NCBI RefSeq assembly: GCF_037975245.1
Contig: NC_092575.1
Location: 4,891,501 to 4,955,500, forward strand
Origin: Apostichopus japonicus
Taxonomy: Eukaryota > Echinodermata > Holothuroidea > Aspidochirotida > Stichopodidae
Direction: 5' to 3'
Length of the DNA: 64,000 nt
The notes beneath the pieces were generated by a model. That model saw only the letters and a program-made list of their open reading frames with translations. It was not told the origin of the DNA and ran no database searches. Positions 21,301-63,400 of this stretch are shown here, one piece after another; position 1 is the stretch's first letter, and every line of letters starts with the position of its first letter. Both the position numbers and the translations under genes were made by a program.

Positions 21301-23387
21301 CCTCAAAGGTGTCTAATGGTTTGCGAACTGTCCTACAGATACCCAACGTATGCAACAGTGCTCTCAAAACAAACACCACAGTCAAACTTACCTCTATTTA
21401 AAAATTCTTCAAAGAGTTTGCCTGTCACTTTCAATTGCTGAGGTGGGAACTCCTGATTACATGTCACCAGAATGACTGGAATGCTACATATTAGCTACAG
21501 GAGAGAAGCATGGGAAACATGAGAGAATTAAAAATATGTAAAGACAAAGAAAAAGGGAATTTATTGTAGCAGGAATGAGCCTGGGGTAAAACACAAATCA
21601 TGGAACTTTGCAAAAATTGCGGTATAGGCTCCAATTTGCATATGCTACAGTTTGTTAGGATAATATTTTTTTGTCCCCGAGGTAGAGAAGAAATCACAGA
21701 TATTCCACGAGTTCGCGGAAAAAGCTCATGCCTGTTGTACTCATGGCTGAGTTTTTATGAGTTTTCATCTGGTTTGGCTAACTGTCTTAGAGAGCTAATA
21801 CTATCCTTGAAGTTGGCTGGAGAAGTTTATTGACTTACTGTAGTCTGTAAACACTAATCAGTTGTACCTCCCAGTATATTGCAAGGATAACCAACTTTGC
21901 AGACAAATTTCAGATATTAAACTTTAAAAAAAAGTCTTATGGATTGTCCAAGGGACAACCACCTGGGGAAAAAAACTAGTACTGTTTTTTTTCTTTTTTC
22001 AGTGTGGAGTTTATGAATGACAGGTGTGAATCTTAAACATGTTTGTTATAATGTAGTCCATAAGCAATTAGTCATAAAAGAAGTCTGTGGTGAGATATGT
22101 GAAACTCTGTGGATTGCCCTCTTGTTAAAAGTTCAAATACCAGTGACCATTTTTTGAGACTTTAGCATATTTGAGGATAATACTAAAGAAGATCTGTAAA
22201 AGAGTCCCATTTCCCGGGAACCATTTTTCTTTCATGCACAGTCAGCATGTTTCTTCTTCTAGTAAAAAAAAAAAAAAAAAAGAGTAAAAAACAGAGAAAA
22301 AGTGAGCTGTCTTACATCTTTGTGAGCTAGTGCATGGATGTCATTGTGCGGTAACTTGGCTCTGTAGGTTGTAGTCGTCTTCCACCAGAGAGGCAGCCCG
22401 AGCAAGATGAAGAACAGACCAATGGCGAGAGCAGTCACCATATGAAGACCATCTGTATTAAAATATATAGTATTATGGGGATATCCTGGTAGTTCCAGTC
22501 AAGGATTGTGAAGATATTTTATTCAGTATGTTTCTTTTTTTTACCTACATTCTAGCATTGAAAAAGCAATAAAGTTTTGCCTTTTTGATTTTTAAGAAAG
22601 AACTTTTATTTTCACTCGTGAGAAGTAGGGTCAGACTTATTTAAATACATTTGTTGGACAGGCCTCTCAGATAGGCTAGGGAATTTCCTCTAAGTTATTT
22701 CTTGAAGTTGCCCACCCAGCAAATCAAATCGCTGAATTCAGCAGTTCCAAAGCCATATTCCTATTGAGTTTTCACTTTTTAACATGTTTTTTTTCAAATG
22801 TCCACATTGGCCTAGGCCTATATCACAATAAGATAGGACTAATACTAGTCAAAGGGCGTTACAAGTTTGTCCAACATAAAACAGCAGTACCAATTATAAA
22901 CATAGAAAATTATCATCGCCCAAAATAACCACTGCTCAATGCCAGTCAGAATTATTAGTATACATTTGTTACCTTTTTACTTTAGGCAGAACTTACTTGC
23001 GCCTAGCTTCACTCTTTACTTTAGCTTAAGGTCTGGATATCTAGCCTATATTTCTTCCTGATTTGATAAAAAGAATTCAATGTTTTGCTTTTCTTGTGAT
23101 TATGCATCATCTATCTCATCAAGTCAACTGTAGGCCTAAGCAAAGTATTGCAAAGGATGAAGTAGACTACAGTATGCTACGTAGGCTAGGCCTACTGTAC
23201 ACTACACTCTACAGTAGCCCATTTCATGTTGAAAGTTTCGCAGAACTGGTCTCTACCAATGCTAACGCTTACAAGATTAGAAAACACTAAACAACTCTAT
23301 GTCATACGCCCAAAAGTGACAGCTGGTCGAAGACAATGTCCACACAGGTTTACCTTCATGACTGGGTTCATTTTTTCTCTTTACCAT
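12344..23387 (-). CDS. PIGS: GPI transamidase component PIG-S
   Basis: Fourteen exons in transcript order: 23387-23354, 22452-22316, 21494-21392, 20780-20679, 19739-19602, 18786-18662, 18111-17991, 17035-16859, 15962-15873, 15399-15221, 14387-14331, 13799-13671, 12966-12806, 12452-12344. They sum to 1662 bases, 553 aa; human PIG-S is 555 aa. PIG-S is a subunit of the ER GPI-transamidase complex, which attaches preformed GPI anchors to proteins. Visible: an N-terminal membrane segment (about residues 16-35, ending [10 protein letters not shown], a family signature), a long luminal domain with [32 protein letters not shown] and [11 protein letters not shown] blocks, and a C-terminal membrane segment (about 520-541). 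The last five residues, KEKQS, fit a KxKxx ER retrieval signal. The start is an ATG whose exon splices in phase to the membrane-segment exon. The gene is complete; all introns are GT-AG. Confidence 0.96.
13029..13500. repeat. ATAATAATGATATCATC microsatellite array in PIGS
   Basis: About 470 bases of aataat/gatatcatcat units with interruptions (a duplicated gaccaac...gggggtcaataat flank at about 13000-13030 and 13360-13400). It lies in the PIGS intron between the exons at 12806-12966 and 13671-13799. Confidence 0.9.
16190..16327 (-). mobile_element. hAT-like transposon remnant
   Basis: On the minus strand the end reads CAGGAGTGGGCAACCTTTTT and then a GGGCCAGAT block. This strongly resembles the terminal inverted repeats of hAT-family elements (CAGxGGTGGGCAAxC type). 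Only one end is convincing, no transposase is visible, and the other boundary is uncertain. It is intronic in PIGS. Confidence 0.4.
17105..17420. repeat. CpG-richer interspersed repeat fragments in PIGS intron
   Basis: Two patches (gggggcaggcgtgtaggggcgggcgaccgcccc near 17135-17170, and about 17265-17415) stand out from their AT-rich surroundings by GC and CpG content and end in motifs such as ctacgcgcctgactgggg. They look like transposon pieces, but no coding or terminal signal is clear. Confidence 0.3.
18461..18572 (-). pseudogene. Partial tandem copy of a PIGS exon (donor end)
   Basis: Positions 18512-18571 duplicate the last 60 bases of the PIGS exon at 18662-18786 with its GT donor. Both copies are flanked by the same aataaactatatttgga segment, giving a ~150-bp offset. 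The copy keeps an open frame ([20 protein letters not shown]) but has no acceptor in the right phase, so it looks like an intronic decoy and not an alternative exon. Confidence 0.8.
20100..20400. repeat. Probable interspersed repeat in PIGS intron
   Basis: Repeating phrases of the type tttgacctgtagtgacctt, ttgtgacctacat, gacctctgacctcaaccc and a CA run end this block. The style is that of noncoding interspersed elements; no coding remnant or boundary is visible. Confidence 0.25.
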
Positions 23388-24916
23388 GGTGTTGATTGAG
23401 TGTTCCAGAATCCGAACAAAAGAACGGTTTAACTTACAAGTTACAGCTTGGTGTAAATTGTAATAGAACCCATTGGGGAAACTTAAATGATGTAGAAAGC
23501 TTTTTAAATAGCCCCCTCATTATCGTAAGTTGGCTTTACAGTTGCTCAATTAGAAAAAACAATGCATTTGAGACGAGCGTTCAAGTATAGCTCAAGCACG
23601 CGCGCAGAAGTTCGACAAGAGGGGGGACCAAGGGAGGACAGCTCAGAACCAAATACTTTCTGATAAATATGGAATAAAGAGAAAATGTATGACCTCAAAA
23701 AAGGGTCCTGTCCTGACATAAATGTCTCAAGCCAGAACTGGCTCTCATCACACCCACAAAGGCCCTCTCCACCCACCAAACATATTAACCCAAACACCAA
23801 CATAGAGAAAATCATTAAGATTAAGTACATATATATGTATATAGTAATATATTTCTTTCCCAAGCATACACATTTCAACTTTCGGTTGTCGCCGGGACAC
23901 TTTAAGACAGTGCGCAGAAACATAATCAGGACAAAAGAATGAAATGACCATGCCCCCTGCTGTCCCATTTCTTGCTTTAAAAAAATGCCACCATAGGCTT
24001 ATGCCAAAAGCATAATCATTGTTAAATTCTACTTTAAAATGTGGTATCGTTCACTGCCAGTGCTGGCTTATAGATTAAGCACTTTTAATGTTATTGAGAT
24101 TTTCTGATATCAGCCGAGGGCCAATGGCTGTAATATCTGATGAATAGATTAACATTACAATACCAAGATAACACTGTGCCCACTCAGATGGGATCCATGC
24201 TGTTTAATAGTCAACTGTCTTGTAGAAACAGAGACTGTAAATCAATGTACCATATGAACCAATGTATCTAATCTCCATTTCTACAACTTATTTCAATCAT
24301 GCTTCAAGGATATCTATTGGTTTCATATCTATATATTTTAATTGCCAAAAGTGAGAAGACATCATAGAAATGAGAATCTACCTGCTTCATGAACCATCAA
24401 TGCTGGTATTTTACATAAGATGATATACTTTAATCATTGCATGATAGAAAAAAATTGACAAAATTTTGATAGTATCATGATAAGGGGGAGGGGGGGGGGG
24501 GAGTGGGAGGCCATATCTCAGGTCTTCTGTAGAATGGGTAATGCCTGATTGACGTTATAAAGTCAACGGAAAACAAGATGGCCTGCAGTCTGGCACCTTT
24601 TACTCAAATCATAGCACCCCTCTACCGCCCTCTAATAGCTAGTGGTGCCATCATGTCTAAATGAATTTCCTTTGAAAGTAATATTCAATTTGATTATAAA
24701 TTGATTAAGACCTTCAAACTCAACCTCAGAGAAAATGTTTCCCAATACATTACCAATTAGGCCTGATGACATAACCAATGAAACATCAAATATCTTAGAG
24801 ACAAATGATTTATTCACACTGCTCTGGCAATTTGAGGTCTAATATTTTTTGGCTTCACCGCTAAAACCAGAAATGGAAAACACAATCATTTTATTAAATG
24901 CTGGCAAAGATGGCAG
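23388..24916. other. Intergenic region between PIGS start and DEPDC5 stop
   Basis: About 1.5 kb containing the PIGS promoter and the DEPDC5 3' UTR, since both genes are on the minus strand. I see no further gene. A G-only patch lies at 24483-24505, and an AT-type microsatellite near 23828-23846. A small CG-containing stretch (ctcaagcacgcgcgcagaag, about 23590) is the only CpG-dense spot. Confidence 0.6.
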
Positions 24917-27362
24917 CTAAACTTGGTCCTCTGCTTCTTCATCCTCATTTTCTCCCTCCATCTCAGAGATTGTCGTCATCTCTTCGTCTTCTGCCTCCTC
25001 TTCTTCTTCCATTGACTCCGTCATAATATCATGAAGAGAATCCTCCAACCGGCAATCCTCGTTGGCACAAAATCGGACAAAGTCGGCGAACAACGAATCG
25101 TAAAGTCTTTCGTCTCCGGCCGCTTGAAGCTTCCACCTCTTATTCAGAAGGAAGTTTCTTATCCAATGAAAGCCAACTTGGTTAGCACCGTTGGAATTTG
25201 ATTTTTCAGCCTCAGAGAACATGAGTGTGTCATTATCAGATGCAGGTAAGTGACTGGCTGATGTAGGCACGTGACTGACTCCTGCAGGTATGTGACTGGC
25301 TGATGCAGGCATGTCAATGTCAGTTGCAGGCGAATGTGTCCGTTTACAGACGCACTTGCTTTGTGTCACTAGTTTGGAATTTGAAGACTGCCCTCTATTG
25401 CCAAGAGTCACAAATGCATGACCAGTCACATGAATATACTGAGTACTGAGGTCGCTCTCCCTCAGGTAGGAGCTGTGCCGACAAGTGACGGGAACACATC
25501 CGATGGTTCGATTCGGGATGAATCCAAATCTAGATGTCGAATGAAAACCAAAAACATTGGTGGCTTAGTAAATATTATACAAGAGACTCATCAAGTTTTC
25601 ACAAAACGTACTGGTCGAAGCAGATTCACAGAATTTAAAATTCGATTTGCATATTGAGGATCAAACAAGTTCAAGCAGAGCAGGGATTAATTTTAAAGCT
25701 GTATGCTGCCTTTGCTAGACAACTTGAACAACGAATGTGCACAGGATTTCAAAGGTGTGGGTGAGGGGGGGGGGAGGGTGAGATTTTAAATTTCCCACGA
25801 TTGATTTATGTAGGGGAATGAACCTTTATGGAAGTGCTGGAAGCAATTCAAGGATTTTTTTAAAGGAGGAGAGTGGCCCTGGGGTCACTGAAGCCTAAGC
25901 TCCTATATAAAAGCACAAAATTAAAAGTTTAAATGTCAAGTAGTTTATTCTGAGGAGGATATATTTCTATGGTCTATCATTAGCTCTCAATGCAAGGTTG
26001 TGCTAATAGATACTTGGTGTATGCCTGTGTAAGCTGAGGCTGAAAAAGTCTCCAGACTAAAACATTTCCCCCCACCAGACAATGCGAGCCACTGAATCTG
26101 GCTATACATGAATTATACATGTAAACTGATATAATAAATTGGATACCTCTCCTCAAGAGATCTATAATTGGTTACAATCATTAAGTGTACACCTAATGAG
26201 TGAGTTAAACATTCATCCAATAGTTAAAACATTTGTCTTTCATGATTATTTATGATCATTCATGATTATTCATGTATTCATGATCATTCATGATTATTCA
26301 TAAGTCATAATTTTTCATGACAATTCATGATTATTCATGAATGTTTTACAGTTTGCATATATTATCAAGCCAAATTTTTAGGTTGCTTGGTGTAACTTTG
26401 GTGTACTGAAGTTACAGACTATGTCTCCAATAGCTTACTGCTTTATACTAAAGTATGGTAAAACACCAAAGTATGGCCAATACACAACAAAATTGAGCTT
26501 TTCAAAAATGAACAGTAATTTTTTAAAACAACTTTTTCATTAATGTCTCTTTAACCGACCTGAATAAAATTGCTTTCTGGATCCTAATTATCTCCTCTGG
26601 ATCGTTGATCCACGATGGAATCGTGACTGGGATGTACAGTGGCTGCTTCAACGGATCGCGGATATCTTCCAGTGATCCGAACGGATCGATACTGGCTGGG
26701 ACTAGATGCAAACCGAACGGAAAGACTCTTCTTGCCCAATTCAGGACCTAAGTGCAAAATAATAAATAAAGCAAAATAAATATACAGAACCTAATATTGT
26801 AGACCATGGACACCACTTTTTGATGAATAAGCTCAAGGAATTGTCCACAATTGAAATATTCATTTTTCTCCTTGCCCAATTCAGGACCTAAGTGCAAAAT
26901 AATAAAATTAAAATAAAATAAATAAACAGAACCTAATATTGTAAACAATGGACACCACTTTTGATGAATAAGCTCCAGGAATTGTCCACAATTGAAAATA
27001 TTCACTTTCTATATAATTGAAAAGAGATAAATTAGAGGACAATTTTTGGAGGGACACTTTAAAGAGCTAACCATTCAGGGAGCGTACATGTTGCAGCCAG
27101 TGTCTAGTGAGCAGTAAAAATCATAAATAAGAAATAACAGTAGGTTGTTTAATATTAAATCTAGGATAACTTTGTATGATTTCCAAACCCAATGTTTCCC
27201 TTGTTATATGATCCCACTGAGTACTTTCAAAAGTCACTTTCCTAAAACAATTTTTTTGACTGCCATATCAGGTAAATAGTGCCAAAAAAGTCGCAAACCT
27301 GGCAGTGCAACAGACACTATCATCACGATATGACCTCTATCTTCAACACTATCACCACTATC

Positions 27363-27446
<84 letters not shown>

Positions 27447-30400
27447 TTATATGATCGAATTCATCAGGCCCTTTTGCAGTACATATTAAGCAGTTGGTTA
27501 ACAGCTTTTAATTTTCTCTCTTTTCATTTACATTTTCATACATAAATTGACCTGACGGAAAACTTTCAAATTTGATAGACACATTTGATCATCTTAAAGA
27601 TCTTTACCATTTCATTTAAGGCTAACGGTGTAGATGTCACCCACTGGAGCTCCACCTCGAATGCCTCGTCAGGGTCATAGATCTCATGAAATCCTAGCTG
27701 GCACTTCCAGAACCGTTTGTTGTAAGATGAACTCCCGACTTCAAACTCCATATGTTTGTACATTGGGTGTTTCTCTGCAGGAGAGACGACCAGGTTAGTA
27801 CCATATATCTCATGGAGCTACAGAGTGGAATCACTATCATTTACACTAATGCAAAAAAAAAAAAACCTAACCTAACCACCTAGCCTACCCCAGGTTAGCT
27901 CCATATCTCATGGGGCTACAGAGTGGAATCACTATCATTTACACTAATGCAAAAAAAAAAAAACCTAACCACCTAGCCTACCCCAGGTTAATACCATATC
28001 TCATGGAGCTACAGAGTGGAATCACTATCATTTACACTAATGCAAAAAAAAAAAAAACCTAACCACCTAGCCTACCCCAGGTCAATACCATATCTCATGG
28101 AGCTACAGAGTGGAATCACTATCATTTACACTAGTGCCAAAAAAAAAACAACAAAAAAAACCTAAAGACCTAGCCTACCCCAGGTTAGTACCATATCTCA
28201 TGGAGCTACAGAGTGGAATCACTACCATTTACACTTGTGCAAAAAAAAACCCTAATGACCTAGCCTATCCCATCACACAAAATAATTTATTCTTAGAGGG
28301 TGGTGATACCCAGTATCATCAGAAAGCATTTTCATATGTTAAGGAGTGGAACGAGTTATCAAAGGAGTGTAAGAATGTCAACTCCTTGAAAACCTTCAAA
28401 CATTTTATCCAGGACTTTATAACTAATTTCTTATGATTTTTCATTTGGTTGATTGTTTCATGTTGTATGTTATGCCATTGTCACATTTTTATGTATGTTT
28501 TTTTTGTCTATTTTATGGTTTGCATTTGTATTCTATATCACTTTTATTCTACTTGCAAATTTATATTCCAGGGCCTCCGGCTAACGGAGCATACCTTTCA
28601 ATGTTAAATAAATAAATATATAAACATCACAGCACATTCCCCCTCACCAAACATCAATTTTACCCACTTTTCTGTTGCCTAATAACACAAAATTAATAAT
28701 CTCTTACTCCTTTAGTTCCTACATAAGCAATCAATAAGTTTCTTTCCAACAATTAACATACTTGACTAAAAAATTACAAATTTGCTACTATTAACGCCCC
28801 CCTCTCGCCCACCCCTTTTCCTTCCTATGCAAATATCCAACTGGTTGCATCAAATACATTTTTTCTGTTCTTTAAGTCATTTTACCTTCCTTCTTTGTGG
28901 TACTTTTCACAGGAGGTACACAAGCTGCCTCAAACATCTGATCCAAGACTTCACCCATTGCTGATGGGGTGCTCTTCACTTTCCCTATTTAACAAGAAGA
29001 AGAAAATGCAGAGAGGTATCGAATGATTTGAAATTATAAATACATTTGTAAAAAAAAATTGTATGTCCACATATGCAGAAGATATGTAATAAACATGAAG
29101 TAGAAAATGTATGTATATTATGTATAATGTATATTCTGAGAAATATATTACATGTGTGATACGTATGTGTATACGTGTGAAAAATATGTATGTATGTACT
29201 GCATGTGTGTATGTATGTATTTCAATGTATGGGGATATAATTTTCACAAGTTTCTCCACAATTTCAACAAATTTGAGAAGTTGCTTTGAGAAGTTATGAT
29301 TCTTGTTAACAAATCTGAAATTGTAATTAATCTTTTAAGTTGAAGACCCACAAAACAGACAAAAAAGTAGAACAAAAACAATGAAAGAAAGACCCCCTCC
29401 CCCCTAAAAAAGAAATTGATAAGGAATTTTTCAACAATGGGAAAAGACAAATGCTAATACCTGTAGTTATATCAATAGGTGTAATGTGGTACCAGTAGTA
29501 ACCATACAGGAACTCAGAGGTGGATTCCTTGGATTTAAAAACTGGTTGAATGTGCTTCTCTTGAAGTAATATCTGCAGATAAGTGAAAGAAATATATACA
29601 TATATATATAAATATAGTCAAGAAAAGAATGGGTGAAACAATGGGTCACCCTTTTCAATTTGTATCAGTCAAGCTGAACTTTACAGAAATGAAACCCGAG
29701 AGTTATGTTTTCTGTATTGATCTTGTTAATATTCAACAGAATTTGATATTTAAAAATATGATGAATCTATGCCAATTTTTGTATTTCAAAGCATGACACA
29801 AGAGTAAACAAACTTGAAATTTTGGTATTTATTTTTGCATGTTGTTATAGATGCTATTTACACATGCTAACATAGAAGAGATTGTGCTTGAATATTTAAT
29901 GGTTAACTATATTTAATTAATTATTACAATATTCATTTTCTGTAATTTTAGTGGATCAAAACCAAACCAAATTGGTAAAGAAAACCGGAGAGAAAGTAGA
30001 AGCTATCCTCTAGTTATGGCAGTGTTGTAATGAGCTACGAATAGAGTCACTAGATTTCAAAAGGTTTGTCAATTTTTTACCCTGTAGAAATAATACACTG
30101 ACTTGAGTCGATTAGTCAACTTTAGTCACCAAGATCACTAGCAATGACTCGACTCGATATAAAATGTAGTGACTCATTACATTACATGACTAGTTACATC
30201 TCTGCCAAGTGGCACCATTACATCACACACAACTTTTTGCTTTTAGGTTATAGAGGGATGAGATATCAGCTCACTTGTAATATACTCATGGCTTCAATGA
30301 AGGTCAGGTTTGTGTCAATGTTCTCTTGAATCCACTGCACGGCATCGTAAGAGATGAAGGTATGGGCAGGGAAGTTCTTCTGATCGGAAGTTATCATAGC

Positions 30401-33400
30401 TAATCCAGAATTTCTGACGAAAAAGAATCAAATACCAAATAAGTATGGTTCTTTGATTGAGAGTACAGTTTCAGCAGAGGAGTGGTTTATAGCCAAACAT
30501 AATTCAGACATTTATATGTACGGAGATAGCTTATGCAGGCCATAAAATGTTTTTTATTCTGTGCTTGTCTTAGAAAATCAAGACACCAAAATTTGAGAGA
30601 GGTTGATTTTAAGCCTACAGTTTTCAAAAAAATGTATTTTATTCTGTGCTTTAGGTTGTTAGCTTTCTTTGTTCATCATTGTCTTAGATTGCTAAGACAC
30701 CAAAATTTCAGGGAAGTTGATTTTAAGCCTATGTTACAAATATTATGTACAGAGAAATCTTGTACACTTTATGCAGGTGCCAGAATGTATTTTAGTTTAG
30801 TCTGTGCCAGAGGTTGCTATTGGTTCTTTCTCTATCCTTGTCATAGATTGCCAGGACAACAAAGTTTGAGAGAGGTTGACTTTAAGCCTACCATACATAA
30901 ATGTTTTGAGGAAAGCTTGTACAAAGTATGTAGGCTAGAGAATATATATATAATATATAATATTGCATATTATTTTCATCTGTGCCTGAGGTTTTAGGAC
31001 TTTTTTTCCCCCATCCTTGTCATAATATACTGCAGGGTTGTATTTCACAATTTCAAAAGGCCAATAAACCAGCAAAATTGGACTTCTAAGCACCATTTCA
31101 ATATCTACAGTGTTTCACCATAACTTGCGCAGTGACTTCCACTTATTTCCACACCGGATCATATCAGAGGATACCTTTCAATGATACAACTGAGCAAAAC
31201 GATTGTCCAACTGCTCTCTTTGTGGAAGCACATTGGAAACATTTAAAATGATCTAACAATTAACCATCGACATCCTTTCAATATTCAACACTTACTCGTT
31301 CGCCATCGCCATGGCAATTGAGTAAGGCGGTGAAACTTTTGTTAACTTCTCCAGAGTCGTTGTTTGATGGCTGCTTGGGTTGCCTTGACTTTCATCTTTG
31401 GGGCTGAAGGAAACGTTGCTTAAAACTGTCTGAATGGTCGACAGAGAAGGACTCTGGGAAGGCTGAGTATTCATCGGCATAGCTGCACCGCTGGGCCGAG
31501 ATATCTTACGGCTAGCCACAGGTGTTTCATTTGCTATTTTCTGCAAGAAAACAGGATTATAGAAAGGGTAGAAAGTAACGGCTAGAAAAGTGTTCAAACA
31601 TTTGTCATATAGAAATTTAAAACACTGTTTGAATAGTCTTATCATAAGAGACATTAAAACCTGTTCTCTCAAGTTACCAGATATTCTGATATTTTCTGCA
31701 AGAAAGCAAGGTTTTAGGAAATGTAGAAAGTGAGTGGTAGAAAAGTGTTCAAACATTTGTCATATAGAAATTTATAAACACTGTTAAAAAGTCTTATCAT
31801 AAGAGACTTTAAAACCTGTTCTCTCAAGTTACTAGAGCAATGTCTCAACCAATTCTTTGAGGTTTTCCCTTTTAATCCAAAAGTTGCAATTTATTTGATA
31901 GTTAACCTCCATATAGATACCAATAAAAACTTTAAATCTTGTCTAAGTTTATATGTGAAGAATGCTGGAGAATATTGAAAACAATTATTGCTGTTAGTTC
32001 ACATTGCATTTCTACACCAATAAAATGACCCTTTAAAATCACTGAAGTTTATCATTTACGTGGGCTTGACTTCTTTAATCTAAACACAAAGAACATTTAG
32101 GTCAGTTTTCTCAGATCAAACCCAAAACTCAATCCGAAAATGATGCAATACAAGTTTGTCAAGGTAAACTGGTGCTGAGTGTCACACAAGGGTGGTCTGT
32201 GGATCATCCTAAAACTAAGAAATACCAGGTTTTGGTTGAGCCAGAATTTATGAAACGACAGACTACTGTAAATGTTTTGGGTGAGGTCATTGTAAATTTA
32301 GCCTTAAAGGAGCAGTCCAGACATTTTGTCATCATATTTCATAGACGAGTTATCTTGAAAACGAGAAATTCTATAGGGACAGGTCTATCACTCAAATTCT
32401 TCCTTTCTTCTTAAAATACGACATATCAAGAATAAACTCCTACCGAAAGTCATCTTTTTAATGATATCATATATATAATATCCGAACAAAGTCAGAGAAT
32501 TACCTCGGATAATCTTATATAAAATAGCAACTATAAAAAAAAAAAAATTACCTGATGTTTCACTTGTGCCCTTTTCTTGTTAAGAGTCTCAGCAAATTTG
32601 AAAAATCCAGACAACAGTTGTTTCTTGGTCGCATCATCTCTCGGTTGAAACACGTCGAGTCGACCGGCAAACTCTTCTTCCTGGAGTTTCTTGACCGTCG
32701 AGGCGCAAGACGGCAGAAGAAGGTACCTACTGCTCCAAAATTTCAGTTTCTATGCCAACAGTGGATAAGGATTCTCCATGTTAGAATTTATCAATTAAAA
32801 AATAAAATCTTCACCAAATTAGCCTACTGCTTTTGGGAGGTAGCCCTTTGGTGGTGGGGGGAGGAGAAGGGAGGGAAGGGGGTGGGTTGAGGAAGAGCAG
32901 TGACATAAAATTTTGATAGAAAAAACCGAGGCTCCGTGAAATTGATTGGTGAGAGGAACTTGACTTATATAGATGATGTTCTGCAAAAATCAAAATGTTG
33001 TTATTATGAATTAGATGATGCAATTATTAATGACAGGTTTATTTAATTAAATGCTTTGGCAAGTCTGCACTAAAAACCATAGCTTACTTCACCATACTCA
33101 GACTTGGAAATAATTAACTATTTTTAAAGTCGAGTTTAGTCACTGCCAGTAATTTTGTACTATCTCTACGGGGGGGTGGGAGGAGGAGGGGGGAGGGAGG
33201 ATTTCAAAAACTTCTTCCAGTCACTTCACTTTTGGAATTTAACGACGCCAGCCGTGACTAGACTTTATTCAATGCTGCACACTTACATTACTGCAGTCTA
33301 ACATTATAAGAAAGCAACTGAGGATCTTAGCACGTTCATCTTTAAGACTTTATTTATTTTGCATTCCAAACTTCTAGATCTGAGAGTAATAGACAAATGT

Positions 33401-45400: not shown

Positions 45401-48400
45401 AGTTGGTAAGTTCACAAATTCATTACGTTCAAATGCAAAGTGCCCCCCCCCCCAAAAAAAAATCTTTTGTACTATTTGCAAGTCTTCAATATTTTTCAGG
45501 CTAAGAGCAAATAGGCTAGACAGCCCAAAAATGGTCAATACAGTACTGCTTACCCACAAAATTGTAGACTAGATAAATCCAGAAATTGCACCCAAAAGTT
45601 ACTTTTTGAATATTTGAGCTAAACTTTTGGTGCAGTAGTCCCTGGTGACTTTCAAACTTACCACAAGTATCAAATTCCCACATCTCTGAGCTCATTTGAA
45701 TATTTATAGTCACCAGTGCTGTCGAGGACCTAAATGAGACCCATGTGTCACTGTTGACGACACCACACGTGACCTTTGTGCCCCCAGACCAAAGGTCAAG
45801 GACTTGGGCCCGTATTCCAAGAAACTTCAAATTCTGGTGAAAGTGAAGGCTACTGTTCATCTACGAAAGGGAAAAGAAAATAAGAAATGGTGTTAAAAGT
45901 AAGAAGAAGATAATTCGTCTGTGAAGCAACTTTATGTCTATACACAGTAATTCCTGTTTAGTTACATTTAGTTCAAATAAAAAGAAGACTCATCTTTTCT
46001 CCTGACACACTGATATTTGGTGAGGTTGAAGAGGGTTGGGGGAGGGGGACGGACAGGGACAGTGGAGAAGCAGCAGTGGGGTAACAAATTACCGCATATA
46101 ATGTGCATGTCATGCCGCAAAGTTTGAGTGACATGAGATGTTTTATCACGAACGTAACCAGTTTATTCACATTAAAATTGAAGAAAATTATTCTGTTTGC
46201 AGAAAAGCAAGTAAACTGTGCATGAATGCAGAGGAAAATGAAACACTTTAGACAGTTTTTTTTTCTCTGTGATTTCATGTCCTGCTTCAAACACTCATAC
46301 TAACAGTATGAGTATTGTGAATATCCCTTTTTCTATTATATAAAATTTACCATTTGTTCATACTGTATGAGTGCTGTGAAGCATGATATGGGAGGACAGT
46401 ATAGAGTGGTATTAGCATGAGCATCGGATAAAGGTTAGGAAGTGTTTATACTGTCAGTATAAGTGCTGTGAAGCATGATATGAGAGGACAGTATAGAGTA
46501 GTATTAGTGTTACTATTATTAGTACAACTGGCTGAAATAAGGGCAAGAGTTATGAATATTCAATGCTGTCTTTCTGGAGAAGAAAAACACCTTTTATCTC
46601 ATTCATGATGCAATGCAAATTGTAAAATTGGTCAGAAAAAGCAATCATGGGTACCAAACAAGATGCAGTTAGTTTCTACAAACATTGTTTTTAAAGTGCA
46701 CAATCTTCATCAGAATAATAATGTCACTATGACTAAATGAATGATATATAAAATATATGCAACCAAAAGGTGCTTTTAAGACAAACCAGTTTAGCTCTGA
46801 GATTCCACATGTCACTTCTGCTTATATATTGTTCCTTGAAGACTACCTCGACAAGATCCAGGGCCACCTCCCCAGGATCCACCTTTTCGACACATACCGG
46901 TTTGTAGGCTCTCAGTTTAAAGAGACCAGCGATACCCTGCTCTATGCTTATCACATCTACAGCAGGAAAAAAAGAAGTTATCTACTACTTATATACCTTG
47001 CTCTATGTTTATCACATCTACAGCAGGGAAAATTAGAGTTATCTACTACTTATATACCCTGCTCAATGCTTATCACATCTACAGCAGGAAAAACAAGTTA
47101 TCTATATACTTTGCACTATGCTTATAACATCTACAGCAGGAAAAAAACGAAGTTATCAACGACTTATATACCCAGCTCTATGCTTATCACATCTACAGCA
47201 GGAAAACAAAGTTTAGATCTACTACTTATATACCCAGCTCTATGCTTATCACATCTACAGCAGGAAAACAAAGTTTAGATCTACTACTTATATACCCTGC
47301 TCTATGCTTATCACATCTACAGCAGGAAAACAAAGTTTAGATATACTACTTATATACCCTGCTCTATGCTTATCACATGTACAGCAGGAAAACAAAGTTT
47401 AGATCTACTACTTATATACCCTGCTCTATGCTGATCACATCTACAGCATGAAAAGAAAAACAGATATCTACTACTTATATACCCTGCTCTATGCTTATCA
47501 CATGTACAGCAGGAAAACAAAGTTTAGATCTACTACTTATATACCCTGCTCAATGCTTATCACACCTGCACAGCAGGAAAAACAAGTTATCTATATACTC
47601 TGCACTATGCTTATAACATCTACAGCAGGAAAAAAACGAAGTTATCAACGACTTATATACCCAGCTCTATGCTTATCACATCTACAGCAGGAAAACAAAG
47701 TTTAGATCTACTACTTATATACCCTGCTCTATGCTTATCACATCTACAGCAGGAAAACAAAGTTTAGATATACTACTTATATACCCTGCTCTATGCTTAT
47801 CACATGTACAGCAGGAAAACAAAGTTTAGATCTACTACTTATATACCCTGCTCTATGCTGATCACATCTACAGCATGAAAAGAAAAACAGATATCTACTA
47901 CTTATATACCCTGCTCTATGCTCATCACATCCACAGCAGGAAAAACACAGTTATCTACTACTTATACCCTGCTCTATGCTTATCACATCTACAGCAGAAA
48001 AAAAAAAACGAAGTTATCTACTACTACCCTGCTCTATGCTTATCACATCTACAGCGGGGGGGGGAACAGTTATCTACTTTCATACCATGTTATAAATAAA
48101 GTTCCCATTTCACTATGTAATTAGTTTCTGAATGATATGCTTTGACACAAAGTTGTTATGCTCTTCAAATCTGAATTAATTGCTTCCAAGACAATGTCCA
48201 AGTGACATTGTTACCATTAAGTAAATGCCTTGTAAACATATAATGTGGAAGAAACTATGAAATGTACTTCACTGAAGCAGATGGGGAAGGGGGTCAGATA
48301 AAAGGGTGGGGAATTCTCTGAGTATGGTAATAAAAGATAAAATAATGACTCTTAGTTGTGATTCAAAGGAAACAATCATTTTGGTATATTTAATATCTTG

Positions 48401-50992
48401 CTATCAAAATAATAAACACAAATAATATTATTTTGTCAAAAGGAGATGAGATACTTCACTGATCAAAATGGAAATGAACGTGATTCCAAAAGTTGTATTT
48501 AGTTTTGATTATATCTCACATTAGCAATATTGTTTTCAAAGTTGAGATTGAGAATGAGATGACAAAATCAGTTTTGCTTAATCGAGTGACTGACGTTACT
48601 GTTTTCTGGTTTGTTTTGCAACCTCCTCTAGGGTATTCAGATTTTGGCATAGTTTCAATTCTTTTGGAGCTTCCACATCAAGGAAGGTATCTACAGTAAA
48701 GGCTCTGGACTCCTTTATTCAGTAGACACAATTATAATAACTGTGACAGAATGTCCATGACAATTTTAATCTTACCTCTCTGTTGCAAACTGGTCTTGAA
48801 AGACTTCACTTGAACGAGTAGATGACTGTAAAAAAAAGTCAAACATTTTATGGTGAGAAGAGGCAGACTTGAACTTGTAAAGTTTCATCTTTTTGCAAGG
48901 GAGAGGTGGTTAGGAGGAGACAGATTCTTCCTGAAACTAAAACCTGTTACAAGAGAAAGCCTAAGACAGAAAATTTCCAAATATAAAAAACAAAATTCCC
49001 TTACTCAGATAAGACTTGTTCAAGTATTCCATCTCCAATAATGTGTCTCACAATATTCATGTAGCAAAGATCATTTACCAATATATATCAAAATATATAT
49101 GTCACCAAAAGTAGCACTTGTAAGTGAATCTACTCTTTTGATATTGAGGCAAATATGAATGTTTAATATGATAAATTAATTCAACGCATTTGTATTTTAT
49201 AACAGCACACCAAGGTAATATTTCAAAACATAGTTTGTGATTATCAATTCACAAAGCGAAGAGAAAGGTAAAGAGACAAATGATTTGTATCAGTTTTATC
49301 TATCCCGTATATTTGGCTCTAAATAATCAAGGTTATGATTTAATTATGCATGGTTCTGCATACACTGCACTGCATAAAATGGATCGAACAGTTTTGGCAA
49401 GCTATCAGTGTATACAACCATGGTAATGAAATATCATAATTGCTATCAATTCTCAAACTGCAGTTCCAGGCACACACTGCTTTCTAAAGGTGTGAGCAAT
49501 TGATTATAGATATCGACAATCTAAAACTCTCACTTTAAACCAAACAACCTACTGGAAATATCTTGTTCCCATTATAAGTTTAAATTCAAACACAGCATGA
49601 CACTAACAAAGTGCAATGGGTAGAATACTTGGGGAAAACATATTAAGATCAGATGAACAAAACACAACAAACAAATTTATTACTTGCAGGAGGTGAGCTG
49701 GAACTCACCTATCATTTGCATCTGGATGGTATATTTCAAGAATATCTCCTATCGCAATATCAGGAAATTCCTTTTGATCAATCACAACATCATCCTCTGT
49801 GAAAGAATGTCAAGTTTAAGATGGCAGTCAAATTTGAAGTTATATAAGATATATAAATCAGCCTTTAAAAATAAACGATTTATGACTCAAATTTGTTGAC
49901 CAATTAGACAAAGCCCAAGTTTCACCTAAAAATTCCTTTAACATACATTAGGTGGTAGCCTACTTTACTGTTTGTCCCACATGTAGAGCATTACAAATAT
50001 CAAAGAGGAAAAAGATAGTCACAATTGTATTTATGGCACAACAATTAGCTTAATGTACCCTACTTTATTTTGGGAATCATGTAGTGAGTTTCAACTCCTG
50101 ACTCTTGAATAGATTATTTCATTTCTACAGATCTATTAACTCTACCAGTTTTCGTGGGAGTCTGCCAGTTTTTCAGCCAATCTCCCAGCCTCCGGGTTTC
50201 ATGCTTAAATCTCCCAGTTTCATCCCATGTGTCATGTCCCAAGTACTCACTGAAAGTACGCCAAAAATAAATTCCCAAGTTGCAGAAAGTTTGGTGTGAA
50301 GTAGACTCAATTACTACAATATCAATGAAAGTGTAAGCGTGGCAGTGTAGTAATACCCAGCAGTAAATTGTTGTGAGCTCAGTGTCTACATACTGCAATT
50401 TCGACAGCTCAGTAACTACAATAATAGTACGGTTGACAGGTGTTCAGTGTAACACCAATTGTAGGTTTTCATAGCGAGATATATATCATTGTTTGTCACT
50501 GACACGTATCAAACGTACATAGTAGAACGACCTGTTTCTAGTTTTATAATTTATACATTGCTGTAAAATTTCAGTTGCAAAATGCTTAACTCCTTATTTT
50601 TGCATTAAAATAATGCTAAATCTCCCTATATATTTTTGTGACAAACAGGCTGGCAGGTCTGTTTCTCTGAGGTCCTGTCCATTACCAGAATGAGGTTATT
50701 ACTGCAACTTGCAAGTTCACAACACTTGAAAACTTATAAATAGACTGAGCAGCCTGTCAAGTAGTTCATGTACAAGCAAAGAATATGCTGCTATTGTACT
50801 TCATATACTGACTTAATCTAAATTAATGCATTACTCAAGCTAGGACTATATCATAGTTCATACTGGCAGTCATTATCATTTCGCGAAAGTGGTACTGACA
50901 CAATATAGAACTTGTTTTCGAACAACGTTCAACCACTGAATTGTCTCACCACTAAAGCCATTGCTGTGAATCAAAAGTTTGAAGTTCTTCAT
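24917..50992 (-). CDS. DEPDC5: DEPDC5, GATOR1 complex subunit
   Basis: Twenty-seven exons in transcript order: 50992-50950, 49796-49709, 48825-48776, 46956-46787, 45860-45662, 44859-44728, 44028-43956, 43376-43270, 43108-43031, 42425-42291, 42070-42009, 41175-41020, 39500-39242, 38726-38577, 37941-37840, 37091-36895, 36375-36283, 35091-35000, 33898-33709, 32749-32552, 31540-31296, 30413-30275, 29572-29461, 28984-28886, 27774-27608, 26747-26560, 25529-24917. They total 4137 bases, 1378 aa (human 1603). With NPRL2 and NPRL3, DEPDC5 forms GATOR1, the GAP for RagA/B that inhibits mTORC1 when amino acids are low. Visible: the IML1-type N-terminal half ([35 protein letters not shown]), a VDWKSLT block, a DEP domain (about residues 940-1020: [23 protein letters not shown]) and the C-terminal QYIHVTG and [13 protein letters not shown] blocks. 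The linker regions are shorter than in human, and an acidic tail follows residue ~1350. Exon 4 uses a weak donor, CTG|GTTTGT. Confidence 0.96.
26238..26345. repeat. TCATGATTAT minisatellite in DEPDC5
   Basis: Tandem copies of catgattattcat/catgatcattcat fill about 105 bases of the last DEPDC5 intron (between the exons at 25529 and 26560). Units are palindromic around TCATGA. Confidence 0.8.
26731..27005 (-). repeat. Tandem duplication including the DEPDC5 exon-26 acceptor
   Basis: The segment around the exon-26 acceptor (cttgcccaattcaggacctaagtgc and its flank, from about 26731) recurs 140 bases upstream in transcript terms (26871-26905). The copy keeps the GCACTTAG acceptor and at least 17 bases of the exon start identical. 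Use of the copied acceptor would run into an early stop at the real exon junction because 140 is not a multiple of three. Confidence 0.88.
27368..27444. repeat. (TA)n microsatellite
   Basis: A perfect 77-base TA run in the DEPDC5 intron between the exons at 26747 and 27608. Confidence 0.98.
27793..28270. repeat. Tandem repeat, five copies of a 93-103-bp unit
   Basis: Units start near 27793, 27894, 27985, 28080 and 28184, each reading gttagtaccatatctcatggagctacagagtggaatcactatcatttacac, then an A-run and ctagcctaccccag. The unit length varies with the A-run. The array abuts a LINE fragment on its right side. Confidence 0.92.
28266..28622 (+). mobile_element. 3' end of a non-LTR retrotransposon (CR1/L2-like)
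   Basis: The plus strand encodes a fragment with [20 protein letters not shown] and a following FKHFIQDFI before a stop at 28434-28436. The W-N-x-L ... S-L-x-x-F-K pattern is typical of the C terminus of CR1/L2-clade reverse transcriptases. A ~180-bp 3' UTR ends in short aaataaata-type repeats. The element is 5'-truncated, as expected, and is antisense to DEPDC5. Confidence 0.7.
30531..30960. repeat. Diverged tandem repeat, three copies of ~110-160 bp
   Basis: Three blocks share gacaccaaaatttgagagaggttgattttaagcct (near 30590, 30690 and 30855) with the same flanking words. A long open frame on the plus strand here follows the repeat and is not a gene. It is intronic in DEPDC5, between the exons at 30413 and 31296. 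Confidence 0.8.
31541..31845 (-). repeat. Tandem duplication (155 bp) including the DEPDC5 exon-21 acceptor
   Basis: Two copies of a 155-bp unit begin at about 31536 and 31691. Each contains the polypyrimidine tract and the TTCTTGCAG acceptor followed by AAAATA, the first bases of exon 21. The internal sequence (gtgttcaaacatttgtcatatagaaattta) is nearly identical between copies. Confidence 0.88.
33165..33205. repeat. G-rich tract
   Basis: A run of G3-G7 blocks (acgggggggtgggaggaggag and following) that could form a G-quadruplex on the plus strand. It lies in the DEPDC5 intron between exons 19 and 20. Confidence 0.7.
33927..33988 (+). repeat. Repeat tail with hammerhead-like core, copy 1
   Basis: CTGAAGATCGTTAGGTGAAACGTCAGGCC is followed by aacttacttttacaca, shared with a second copy at 41229-41280. 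The CTGAAGA ... GAAA spacing resembles the two conserved strands of a hammerhead ribozyme core, but helix II is poor here. It lies just upstream of the DEPDC5 exon-19 acceptor in transcript sense and is probably a retroelement tail. Confidence 0.5.
39560..39826 (-). mobile_element. tRNA-derived SINE
   Basis: Read on the minus strand it starts with a tRNA-like head (GAGAGCAATTTGGTGAAGTGG, TTAAGGCAGTGGACTTGCAGG) and continues into a body with gtgtccttgggcaaggcattttatc and cacccaggtgtgtaaatgggg. That composition is typical of deuterostome tRNA-SINEs. The left boundary is uncertain. It lies in the DEPDC5 intron between exons 12 and 13. Confidence 0.6.
41229..41280 (+). repeat. Repeat tail with hammerhead-like core, copy 2
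   Basis: CTGAAGA, one extra A, then a perfect 5-bp hairpin (GATCC TGCTT GGATC), then GAAACGTCAGGCC and aacttacttttacaca. The GAAACGTCAGGCC tail is identical to the copy at 33927. Helices I and III of a ribozyme are not evident, so self-cleavage is unproven. Intronic, antisense to DEPDC5. Confidence 0.55.
44463..44590. repeat. ACTG/ACTC microsatellite
   Basis: Imperfect tetranucleotide array of gactgactgactg and cactcactcac with a ccacccaccc patch. It lies in the DEPDC5 intron between exons 6 and 7. Confidence 0.9.
46355..46510. repeat. Direct repeat, ~60 bp, two copies
   Basis: The block gtgctgtgaagcatgatatgrgaggacagtatagagtrgtattag occurs at about 46370 and 46460. Both copies are preceded by catactgt-type words. 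It is in DEPDC5 intron 4. Confidence 0.8.
46929..48062 (-). repeat. Satellite derived from the DEPDC5 exon-4 splice acceptor (~62-bp unit, ~19 copies)
   Basis: Each unit on the minus strand contains TTTTCCTGCTGTAG (acceptor-like) followed by ATGTGATAAGCATAGAGCAG, then GGTATATAAGTAG. The unit adjoining exon 4 is the functional acceptor (exon starts at 46956), and its first ~25 exon bases match every repeat. I count 18 further copies; about 13 keep the AG, the rest have AC, GG or an inserted base. A block of about seven units is itself duplicated (offsets of 427 and 487 bases). It fills most of the left part of DEPDC5 intron 3. Confidence 0.93.
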
Positions 50993-51166: not shown

Positions 51167-51677
51167 TATGGAACGCCAAAAGGACCACAGGTGGCGCTAC
51201 TACTCTAAACAGGTGGCGCTACTACTCTAAACAGGAGGTGCTACTACCCAAAACAGGAGGTGCTACTACCCTAAACAGGGGGTGCTACTACTCCTAGTAG
51301 GAGGTGCTACTATACTCTAAACAGGAGGTGCTACTACTCCTAAGTGACGATCCTACTGTAAAAAGGAGGCGCTACTACTCTAAATAGGCGATACTGCTAC
51401 TACTACAGGCGGCGATGCTACTGTAAATTAGTGGCGCTACTACCCTAAACGGAAGGTGCTACTACCCTGTAACCAAGGCGTGTTTCCAAGGCGTGTTTCC
51501 AAAACAATATGCACACGGGGTCAACGAAGGTCACTCTTCAGTTTTCCTACATATAAATGTCTGTACAGATTGAGAGTATCAACGGTTACTACCATATGAA
51601 ACGTTAGTTTCGATATTAACTTGTGGGCAAATTCAAACAGTTTACAAGAAAAAGAATCCATATTATAATTACAAAGA

Positions 51678-53879: not shown

Positions 53880-54280
53880 ATGACCCCTTTATGCATATTT
53901 TTTTGGAAACAGGCCTTGGAAACACGCCTTGGATACAGGGTAGTAGCGTCTCCAATTTGGAGTAGTAGCACCTTCCGTTTAGGGTAGTAGCGCCACTAAT
54001 TTACAGTAGCATCGCCGCCTGTAGTAGTAGCAGCATCGCCTATTTAGAGTAGTAGCGCCTCCTTTTTACAGTAGCATCGTCACTTAGGAGTAGTAGCATC
54101 TCCTGTTTAGAGTAGTAGCATCTCCTGTTTAGAGTAGTAGCACCTCCTGTTTAGAGTAGTAGCACCTCCTAATAGGAGTAGTAGCACCTCCTGTTTAGGG
54201 TAGTAGCACCTCCTGTTTAGGGTAGTAGCACCTCCTGTTTAGAGTAGTAGCGCCACCTGTAGTCCTTTTGGCGTTCCATA
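53880..54280 (-). repeat. Right terminal inverted repeat array
   Basis: The reverse complement matches the left end (51167-51515) unit by unit, including the TAGGCGATGCTGCTACTAC and TAAATTAGTGGCGCTACTAC variants. It carries a few more units than the left arm. Confidence 0.85.
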
Positions 54281-60486: not shown

Positions 60487-63400
60487 ATGGTAAGCTTCAA
60501 TTTAATTGATATTCTGGTTTATGATGTGCATCTAGACATCTCATTGTGAACACACTTGCCAAATTTTGTAAGAATTAAATTTTGCATTCAGCTTTGCGTA
60601 GACCACAGTAGCAGTGTCGGTTTCTTTCAGGAACCGAAATTTCAAATTTGACAAACGTTGTGCAATAGAGAGTCACACTTAAAAGAAGAAAAAAAAAATG
60701 GAAGATTTAAGTGGCTTCTTTTACGTTCTTTTCGCAGGGTGCATTTCAAATTGAAGTAAAGACTCTCAGCGGAAAGAAACCCATCGTATTTGCTTGGGAA
60801 AATCCGGTCAAGAAAATGATCCAATGTGTCCTTGTTTCGTGTCCATGTCAAGGGATCACTTTGCCAGCAACTCATGACATGAAAAAAGATCCGAACGGCG
60901 CCGTCGTGATGGACCAGAACATGGCATGTACCTTAGTCTCGGCTCTGGAGAAGGCCGAGCTGTTCACTTATTCCACGCTGGATCATGTGGAAAGTCTCAT
61001 GAACCACATCGATCCAAATGCCGAGGACAAGAGCTTGAAAACCAAAAAGAAGAAGAAACGGCACAAGAATAAACCGAGAAAGAAAACGAAGAGAGCGAAA
61101 AATCAGAACGGCATCATGCACAGCGGCCTGGAAATTGACAGTCTCAGCGGTCCAGAAGTTGACTCTGTCAATATACTAGAAGACACCCAGCATTTTGACG
61201 AACTCATGCAGGAAATGCTTCAAACCCCGGCATCAATAATAACCGTCGAGACATGCGTCGACGATGAGGACACTGCAGTCTCAGATCAGAGGGAAGACAA
61301 GAGCGACGGTACGGGTTCTATCCCAGACATCGACAACAGCCTGGAGATGGAGAGTGGAGCCAATCTGGAGGACAGTGTAAGTGTCATGTGTGACAGTATA
61401 CCAGACGACACAGAACAGATAGAGCAACCGGTGGAAGAGATTCTGGAAACGTCGTTAGAAACGGACCAATTGTCAATGACACCCACCTTTCAAAATATGA
61501 ACTCTTCCACCCAGCATGGCATAAGTAACAGTCCAGTAGATAACGAACAGATCGCAAGGGAAAGTTGCAGTGAGGTGACGGTTTCCAGAGAAAGTCAAAA
61601 TTTAGTCAATGTTCTGTCACTAGAAAGCGTTACCGTCATGTCAACGTCTGCAAACTCTGTCGTCGCTGATGACGAGGACGGGGGGCTGATGGAGACCATC
61701 AAAAGCCTCATCGAAGAATTTCCGGAAGACAAGTCCATGAATTCTCAAGACTCCCTAGGGGCAGATTGTGGCATGGAAGATTTTTATAAGCCCAAGGTCA
61801 AATTCATCAGACATCTCACGGAGGAGGAGCGTCAGAAGATGTTTAAATTCGGTACGGATAGAGAGAAGGAGAACCTGAAGAAACTGGAGGATGGAAGTAA
61901 AGCCTTCCTCTGTGACGTATGCGGGAAAGTGATATCGAAGCACGGTCGGAAAAACCACATGGCAACTCATGCCAGAGACGGGTTAGAGAGGAAACACGCT
62001 TGTGCAATTTGCGGTCTGGCCTTTTTCAAGAAGTCTTATTTGAGCAGCCACCTCAAAATCCACGACGCCAACAGGAGACTGCAATGCCGATACTGTCCGA
62101 AGAGTTACCGATCGGTCACGGGGAGGACCAACCACGAGCGACTCCACTTTGCCGTCTATCGGGAAGAATGCGAACAGTGCGGCAAACATTTTGTCGAGAG
62201 CAGAGGTTACAGAAATCACCTGGAGAAGATCCACGGTGTGAAATCCTCTGCGACGGGCAAAAGGGAAGAAGCGACGAAAAAGAATGCCGATGGTGTCAAG
62301 GCGAAGGCGCAGATATTCTGCAAGATTTGTCAAAAGTTCATCTATAAATCCAACCTCAAAACGCACATGGATGCCCACTCGGGCAAACTGTACACCTGTA
62401 ACATCTGTGGTAAGGTCATGGCGTCCTGTAGCAGGTATATCCACAGGAAACTCCACTCGTCGAAGTCCCGTCAAAAATGCTCCGTCTGTGGCAAAAACGT
62501 GCAAAACCTCACCGTCCATATGCGGACGCACACCGGCGAAAAGCCCATCAAATGCAGGTACAGTTTCAAGTTTGTCGAGACGGAGCTCTGTTTACGTCAA
62601 GTTATCATATAATCACTGCAGTGTTATACTAAGTACTGCAGCTTGTATCATATTATATCCACATTGGCTGATTTTTCACTTTGAGTTTTATAAGTAAATT
62701 GTCCTGTAAGTTATGATGCTGCAATGCAAATGCAATGTTAAGACAGTATAATACTGTTACTGTATGTCAGATGTCAAAGAAATATTTAATCTGTCGTAAT
62801 ACAGTCTATAGATCGAATAAATGGAAATTTTGTATGGCAGTTGTCGGGCAAGCGAAACTTTTATTGTTGCTATCTTGATACATAGGAATTGAATGCAAAA
62901 TTAACCAGGATTGCTTAGAATGAATATGTCCTTCTTTCATTCATAGTCAAAAATTGAAATTTTTCCTTGCACTTATAATTTTTAATTACTAAATTTGCAG
63001 TTTATTAACATAGGAGCCAGGATGCATAGAATGTGTTGCTCTTTCATGATCGGTCCAAAATAAACCTTCCTAAAGACTATCCTTGTATTAGCTTTTACTT
63101 TTATATATAGTTATTGAGAGATAAACTTATGTATGGGTTATCTTCCCACGACAGGTACTGTGACAAGAGGTTTGCAGTTCACGGCGGGCGTCAGATCCAC
63201 GAAATAAGTCACACTGGGGAACGGCCTTATAATTGCACCATTTGCGATAAATCCTGGAAGGACAGAAATTGCTATCGAACTCATATGACCAAAAACCACC
63301 CCGGAGAGTAAGTATATATAGTATAGTTTTGTTCCGTCTGTTAATAGAATGATACCTGTATGTACATAGCTTGTATGAAAGCCATACTGCCAAAGCAATA

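Follow-up and report, generated by a model that had tools for sequence, protein, structure and literature searches.

The final ~1.1 kb of intron 3 of the DEPDC5 gene of the sea cucumber Apostichopus japonicus consists of 18 extra head-to-tail units on the minus strand, each of which repeats the end of the intron and the start of exon 4; the nineteenth copy is the real exon 4. This array is a large mirage, a known kind of boundary duplication, present here outside the cephalochordates in which it was described. Judged from its sequence, it is very probably a minisatellite that arose by duplication of the exon-4 acceptor, whose decoys would normally be ignored and which would form part of a frequent and neutral process of local duplication. 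All positions refer to the window, that is, the whole 64-kb stretch of DNA that was analysed.

Structure of the array

The exons and the repeat units are arranged as follows.

48776–48825, minus strand: DEPDC5 exon 3, ending in phase 1 (...LQQR G|) with the strong donor GAG|GTAAGA
46957–48095, minus strand: array of 18 decoy 3′ splice sites with exon start
48048, 47988, 47930, 47867, 47805, 47743, 47681, 47619, 47565, minus strand: exon-like starts of decoy units 1–9
47503, 47440, 47378, 47316, 47254, 47192, 47130, 47078, 47017, minus strand: exon-like starts of decoy units 10–18
46787–46956, minus strand: real DEPDC5 exon 4, 170 nt, whose opening 25 nt recur in the units; donor CTG|GTTTGT

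Tandem Repeats Finder reports the exon-4 array in two rows with scores of 1182 and 1671. The units are 52–63 bp long, with 62 bp in 10 of the 18 decoys, and all 18 precede position 46956 on the minus strand. The initial annotation, which had described ~18 decoys copied from the 3′ splice site of exon 4 in units of ~62 bp and an exon-3 donor at 48776, is borne out on these points. Each unit comprises a T-rich tract (C-rich in unit 1), CTGTAG or a variant of it, and ~25 bp of exon 4. The AG is intact in 14 decoys (13 TAG and, in unit 9, one CAG) rather than in about 13 as first counted, and is gone from units 3 (TGG), 5, 10 and 12 (TAC). The repeat unit spans the authentic boundary, joining the intron end, the AG and ~25 nt of coding exon 4, and every decoy (18/18) lies on the intron side, upstream of exon 4, many with intact splice signals (AG in 14/18). 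This is the arrangement seen in mirages.

Over 71 residues, the peptides of exons 3 and 4 match the human DEPDC5 of solved structures, and DEPDC5 matches in the genome were reported at this locus only. Since the copied 25 nt encode residues which align to the human protein, copying ran from the exon into the array. The array itself is confined to one locus: a 24-nt core searched with up to three mismatches gave 18 matches in 671.6 Mb, all at the exon-4 array (the real exon and 17 decoys), in a search that left out stretches read as N and common words. Unit 9 carries an indel and falls outside this count. The reversed core, used as a control, gave no match in 671.6 Mb (35 contigs), which speaks against chance, and no copy of the array was found elsewhere in the 671.6-Mb genome. 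A dispersed repeat or mobile element was rejected on the basis of this single locus in the genome search. A NAGNAG tandem acceptor was likewise rejected, the decoys being spaced by 52–63 nt and not by 3 nt.

Other boundary duplications in the window

Self-comparison of the 64-kb window yielded 14 local direct-repeat clusters, 7 of which were read by eye. Among them are the following.

26727–27008, minus strand: second DEPDC5 mirage, with ~140 bp duplicated over the acceptor of the exon that begins at 26747
31532–31836, minus strand: third DEPDC5 mirage, with 155 bp duplicated over the acceptor of the exon that begins at 31540
18491–18724, minus strand: mirage at a donor of the adjacent gene, PIG-S; the exon ends at 18662 and the decoy at 18512
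27790–28272, minus strand: intronic 94-bp DEPDC5 array, not counted as a mirage, which stops ~15 nt short of the likely acceptor 27774

The duplication at 26747 provides one decoy (start 26887) with 21 nt of exon, and the boundary concerned, EM|VLNW, falls at a gap-free point of the alignment to human DEPDC5. At 31540 there is also one decoy (start 31695), with only 9 nt of exon copied. The PIG-S duplication includes ~63 nt of exon together with the donor.

The array at 27790–28272 has four copies beside the exon-proximal one and repeats a branch-point-like TACTAAC stretch, exact in one of the four. Its candidacy as a fourth mirage of DEPDC5 was rejected, since the acceptor at 27774 has the higher score (8.5 vs 3.7) and a TACTAAC upstream. 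An AT-rich 34-bp array at 13027–13496 ends ~60 bp upstream of a predicted PIG-S exon.

Frequency at exon boundaries

Local tandem repeats straddle 11 of the 344 exon boundaries that we surveyed in the genome (3.2%, 95% CI 1.6–5.6). The kinesin and myosin set comprises 38 stretches (202,038 bp) with 124 exons, 244 placed boundaries and 38 repeat clusters, while the CCT set (PF00118) comprises 14 stretches (82,114 bp) with 51 exons, 100 placed boundaries and 20 repeat clusters. Exon-dense stretches were taken (77 of the 126 matches listed for kinesin, 47 of 70 for myosin and 51 of 57 for CCT), so that short-intron regions are favoured. The boundaries do not come from annotation but from homology matches refined with a generic splice score, and no position could be assigned to 4 of 248 in the kinesin and myosin set and to 2 of 102 in the CCT set. 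A frequency of 3–4% had been predicted in writing for the UCH set, ahead of the CCT data. PF00443 (UCH) was set aside as replicate family before any of its DNA was retrieved, with many of its matches being long single-frame copies or running across introns, and PF00118 was used.

Inspection by eye covered 14 of 38 and 8 of 20 clusters, namely those flagged by the script as a hit or near, plus L045 1027; L018 5402 and L042 1535–4133 are among the clusters outside it. The script flagged 9 and 4 straddlers in the two sets, and 8 and 3 were accepted under the rule that at least 8 nt of exon are copied. The donors of L008 and L050 were set by eye where the script had misplaced them, and the script's L050 acceptor was not used. 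The accepted cases are:

Acceptor straddlers: L008, L015, L033
Donor straddlers: L008, L018, L026, L039 (two), L045 (two), L050

They amount to 8 of 38 clusters for kinesin and myosin and 3 of 20 for CCT. Several arrays offer decoys identical to the real site: L018 has 7 decoy donors, of which 6 share every letter with the real donor over −3 to +6, and the two L045 arrays hold 7 and 10 identical decoy donors. The L008 donor case has a single decoy, which has lost the GT. In L015, L050 and the 31540 case of the window, only ~9–12 nt of exon lie within the copy.

Further candidates were left out of the count. One is L038 3540–4530, where the donor of a myosin gene adjoins an array of 53-bp period. 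This array holds another 18 donors of the type TAG|GTATGC, and 17 of these are identical to the real one over −3 to +6; with only ~8 nt of exon copied it is borderline. The exon copy of L045 1027 ends a few nucleotides before the boundary, L050 1677 has a copied donor with ~2 nt of exon, L022 was dropped at 71% identity, and L051 1995 was dropped as its array begins inside the intron. L016, L018 411, L018 6168, L037, L051 1–893 and L053 do not straddle a boundary.

Two other structures in CCT genes were noted. Within the donor array at L045 3684–4275, which has 10 identical GAG|GTATGT copies, TTTCAG directly precedes the exon copy in several units, which consequently look like 30-nt exons with both signals. 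At L042 1535–4133, a 705-bp stretch is repeated 1,178 bp away (93% identity) and the span covers two exons.

If these duplications were placed at random within their own stretches, 5.8 straddling clusters would be expected, compared with the 11 of 58 observed (P(≥11) = 0.026), and this approximately twofold excess rests partly on acceptance by eye. Boundaries are thus struck at random or at most about twice as often. The excess raises the question of whether exon boundaries are hot spots of tandem duplication, with nucleosomes, R-loops or recombination among the conceivable causes. We consider this rather unlikely. In its favour, the departure from randomness sharpens to P = 0.009 when the test is restricted to the 50 clusters whose periods do not exceed 300 bp, and kinesin and myosin alone give 8 cases vs 3.7 expected (P = 0.026). 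However, CCT alone gives 3 vs 2.1 (P = 0.35), and coverage shows no excess for kinesin and myosin, where clusters occupy 21,953 of 202,038 bp (10.9%) and 8 of 244 boundaries are straddled (3.3%). Moreover, exons outside the modelled domains are uncounted and the acceptance by eye may bias the count.

Splice-site strength and constraint

Splice profiles were derived from this genome, at first from 102 acceptors and 105 donors and later from 146 and 152; they were built from the survey's own placed boundaries (positive scores only), so that the percentiles below are partly circular. With the 146-acceptor profile, the real exon-4 acceptor lies at the 62nd percentile. Unit 2 (77th) and unit 9 (64th) score at least as high, the other AG-bearing units range from the 8th to the 45th, and the four decoys without AG are at zero. 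The initial claim that the array derives from the exon-4 3′ splice site is supported, and the array supplies 14 acceptor-like decoys. Noisy splicing, also proposed, may occur: because 14 of 18 decoys keep the AG and two score at least as well as the real site, some mis-splicing is plausible.

Such mis-splicing could in principle be put to use. Some transcripts would splice to decoys, meet a stop and be degraded, and the copy number would tune the level of DEPDC5 and mTORC1 activity. The 14 intact AGs, the two decoys that equal or exceed the real acceptor and the very weak donor of exon 4 speak for this scheme; CTG|GTTTGT, already described as weak in the initial annotation, lies at about the 1st percentile of donors sampled in the genome. 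Read-through from a decoy would also stop early, as had been anticipated for units whose donor is not used: the in-frame stop comes after 9 codons in units 3–18 and after 11 and 12 codons in units 1 and 2. We nonetheless hold a regulatory role to be improbable. The decoy signals bear no sign of preservation (AG changed at 4 of 36 positions), and the same architecture in unrelated genes points to a by-product rather than a device. The array had been presented as one special satellite in a key mTORC1 regulator. This does not stand: there are two more mirages in DEPDC5 and one in PIG-S, and ~3% of sampled boundaries are affected. Because similar copies are widespread at exon edges, the exon-4 array is better seen as a by-product of local duplication, one that poses a challenge to splicing, than as a special device.

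Compared with the real copy, the units differ at 19 of 450 positions in the exon part and 4 of 36 in the AG; for the tract the figure is 69 of 324, for the spacer 40 of 262. Changes in the exon part are distributed 2, 8 and 9 over codon positions 1, 2 and 3, numbers too small to demonstrate coding constraint. Among the copies themselves, differences amount to 7.9% in the exon part vs 19.6% in the T-tract and 20.2% in the spacer. Tests for selection within the array are weak, as the units are related through block duplication. The decoy AG does not look protected from mutation. The lower divergence of the exon copies is readable as constraint, but we think it more probably due to slippage and indels in the T-rich part.

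It had further been suggested that each unit could form a 21-nt in-frame exon (AG...GG|GTATAT) which would add a DVISIEQ-like heptad and thereby vary the length of the protein. On paper the phase-preserving cassette exists: every one of the 18 decoys has a GT 21 nt into its exon copy, although the sequence GTATAT, said to be present in every unit, occurs in only 16. Phase and length fit, no unit has a stop within the 21 nt, and a crude gene finder chose unit 9 as a 21-nt exon. In 17 of the 18 decoys, however, the cassette donor does not rise above the 12th percentile, unit 18 being the exception (36th–45th percentile across the two profile sets). Introns between adjacent cassettes would measure ~41 nt. 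In the kinesin and myosin set, by contrast, none of the 86 gaps that separate successive exon matches is shorter than 188 nt (median 929), and such gaps slightly exceed true intron lengths. Skipping one unit would give an intron of ~103 nt, against which the 188-nt gap argues less firmly and not outright. Together with an AG that is not spared, these features are not those of microexon cassettes, and coding heptads seem to us very improbable. Recursive splicing, which had also been put forward, finds no match in the sites either: 13 of the 14 AG-bearing units read TAG|ATG and not AG followed by GT as in a ratchet splice site, and unit 9 alone reads CAG|GTGTG.

Least credible of all is an assembly artefact or false duplication, given that the units differ by shared and private substitutions, that unrelated arrays are present elsewhere in the genome, and that the long accurate reads of what appears to be the source assembly (~64x HiFi, mean 14.7 kb, according to the portion of the assembly report consulted; PMC10344927) far exceed the 1.1-kb array.

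Proposed origin and mechanism

The duplication of an acceptor into a mirage minisatellite remains our preferred reading, and the flanks of the array offer a possible route for it.

48082–48086, minus strand: left-flank GGTAT, which may form a 5-bp microhomology with the right breakpoint, recognised by eye
46932–46936, minus strand: exon-4 GGTAT, where the founding duplication may have had its right breakpoint, recognised by eye
47131–47867, minus strand: probable recent block duplication within the array, units 4, 5, 6, 7 being identical to 11, 12, 13, 15

The left flank CATGGTATGAAAGTAGATAACT resembles a unit as far as GGTAT, and exon 4 has GGTAT at the unit end. This fits a founding tandem duplication between 5-bp repeats, a match seen by eye at one locus. 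A segment of ~60 bp across the exon-4 acceptor would have been tandemly duplicated, possibly between these two 5-mers, and further duplications of units and blocks would have led to 18 decoys. The identity of units 4–7 to units 11, 12, 13 and 15 (4 x 62 nt, compared by eye) suggests that the block was duplicated recently; the copy number is therefore probably still variable. Boundary duplications in general would arise mainly from a high rate of local tandem duplication of 40–240 bp.

After duplication of an acceptor, the copy joined to the exon body would stay working while the others are displaced upstream into the intron; donors would behave as the mirror image. Correct splicing is assumed here from the intact reading frame and by analogy with amphioxus. 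With several decoys matching the real site letter for letter, the correct choice cannot be a matter of site sequence alone. Exon definition with the nearest partner site would explain it: the spliceosome would pair sites across the exon and take whichever copy lies closest to the exon body. If a decoy were used but its weak donor were not, a premature stop and probably nonsense-mediated decay would follow.

Relation to known systems

Mirages were described in amphioxus, in Adh3 and in the globins BflGb6 and BflGb9, and the sections of that study which we consulted note duplication at either exon boundary (PMC3087553); troponin C is also named as a mirage gene (PMC3902484, consulted in part). 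According to the same amphioxus sections, mirages seem not to disturb regular splicing though many repeats hold AG or GT signals, and BflGb6 has 6 and 3 units of 150–160 bp in two haplotypes (PMC3087553). The DEPDC5 array shares with the amphioxus mirages the boundary-spanning units and the intron-side decoys, many with intact AG or GT, and the sea cucumber cases further share concerted turnover within a cluster and occurrence at either exon end. The differences concern the host, an echinoderm and not a cephalochordate, and the spread over several sampled genes. The size differs as well, with 18 extra copies of 52–63 bp in DEPDC5 vs the 3 and 6 longer units of BflGb6. For the amphioxus mirages splicing and haplotype differences were examined, whereas the DEPDC5 array is known from the sequence of one assembly. 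Among the matches listed in the open-licence literature, there was no report of an echinoderm mirage.

A related case is lancelet PGBD5, for which the sections available to us describe 60- and 108-bp repeats that overlap splice sites, with a triplication of the 108-bp unit; the authors infer accurate splicing (PMC3902484). PGBD5 resembles the DEPDC5 array in its imperfect tandem repeats including splice sites, which in PGBD5 are both 5′ and 3′.

Intron gain by tandem duplication also involves duplication across splice signals, but in DEPDC5 no new intron is evident and the array lies inside an existing one. A minisatellite of human IFI6 (from a 1995 study) reportedly supplies donor sites and is, like the DEPDC5 array, a minisatellite with repeated splice sites of its host gene. 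By the title of that study, IFI6 provides donor sites in a transcript, whereas the DEPDC5 array holds putative acceptors.

Significance

Mirages had previously been described in a handful of amphioxus genes, as far as the consulted sections indicate. The present analysis adds an echinoderm example, a first estimate of frequency and a natural test of the choice among identical sites. Their presence at ~3% of sampled echinoderm boundaries suggests that local duplication generally produces such arrays in some animal genomes. Mirages would represent raw material for alternative exons and new introns, as proposed by the amphioxus authors in the sections consulted (PMC3087553).

A bolder view would be that exon-edge arrays are pervasive and actively generated, that the spliceosome picks sites by position, and that array length adds heritable quantitative noise, for example to DEPDC5. 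We consider this unlikely as a whole. If true, thousands of exon edges (extrapolated from the sampled 3%) would carry decoys, some arrays having 10–18 of them, many letter-identical, and the choice would rest on position relative to the exon body (exon definition) and not on site sequence.

Additional observations

COX1 on the mitochondrial contig of the genome translates properly under the echinoderm code. In contig C29, positions 14745–31219 hold COX1-like pieces off the mitochondrial contig, perhaps a mitochondrial or nuclear-mitochondrial fragment. Within the window, two arrays of 22-bp units (51187–51465 and 53940–54260, ~2.5 kb apart) look like mutual reverse complements and, from consensus units compared by eye, resemble the subterminal repeats of a foldback-like or terminal-inverted-repeat element. 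A 633-residue open frame with C2H2 zinc fingers occupies 60711–62609 on the plus strand, and an RPB11-like gene lies between this frame and DEPDC5 (57031–56380, minus strand).
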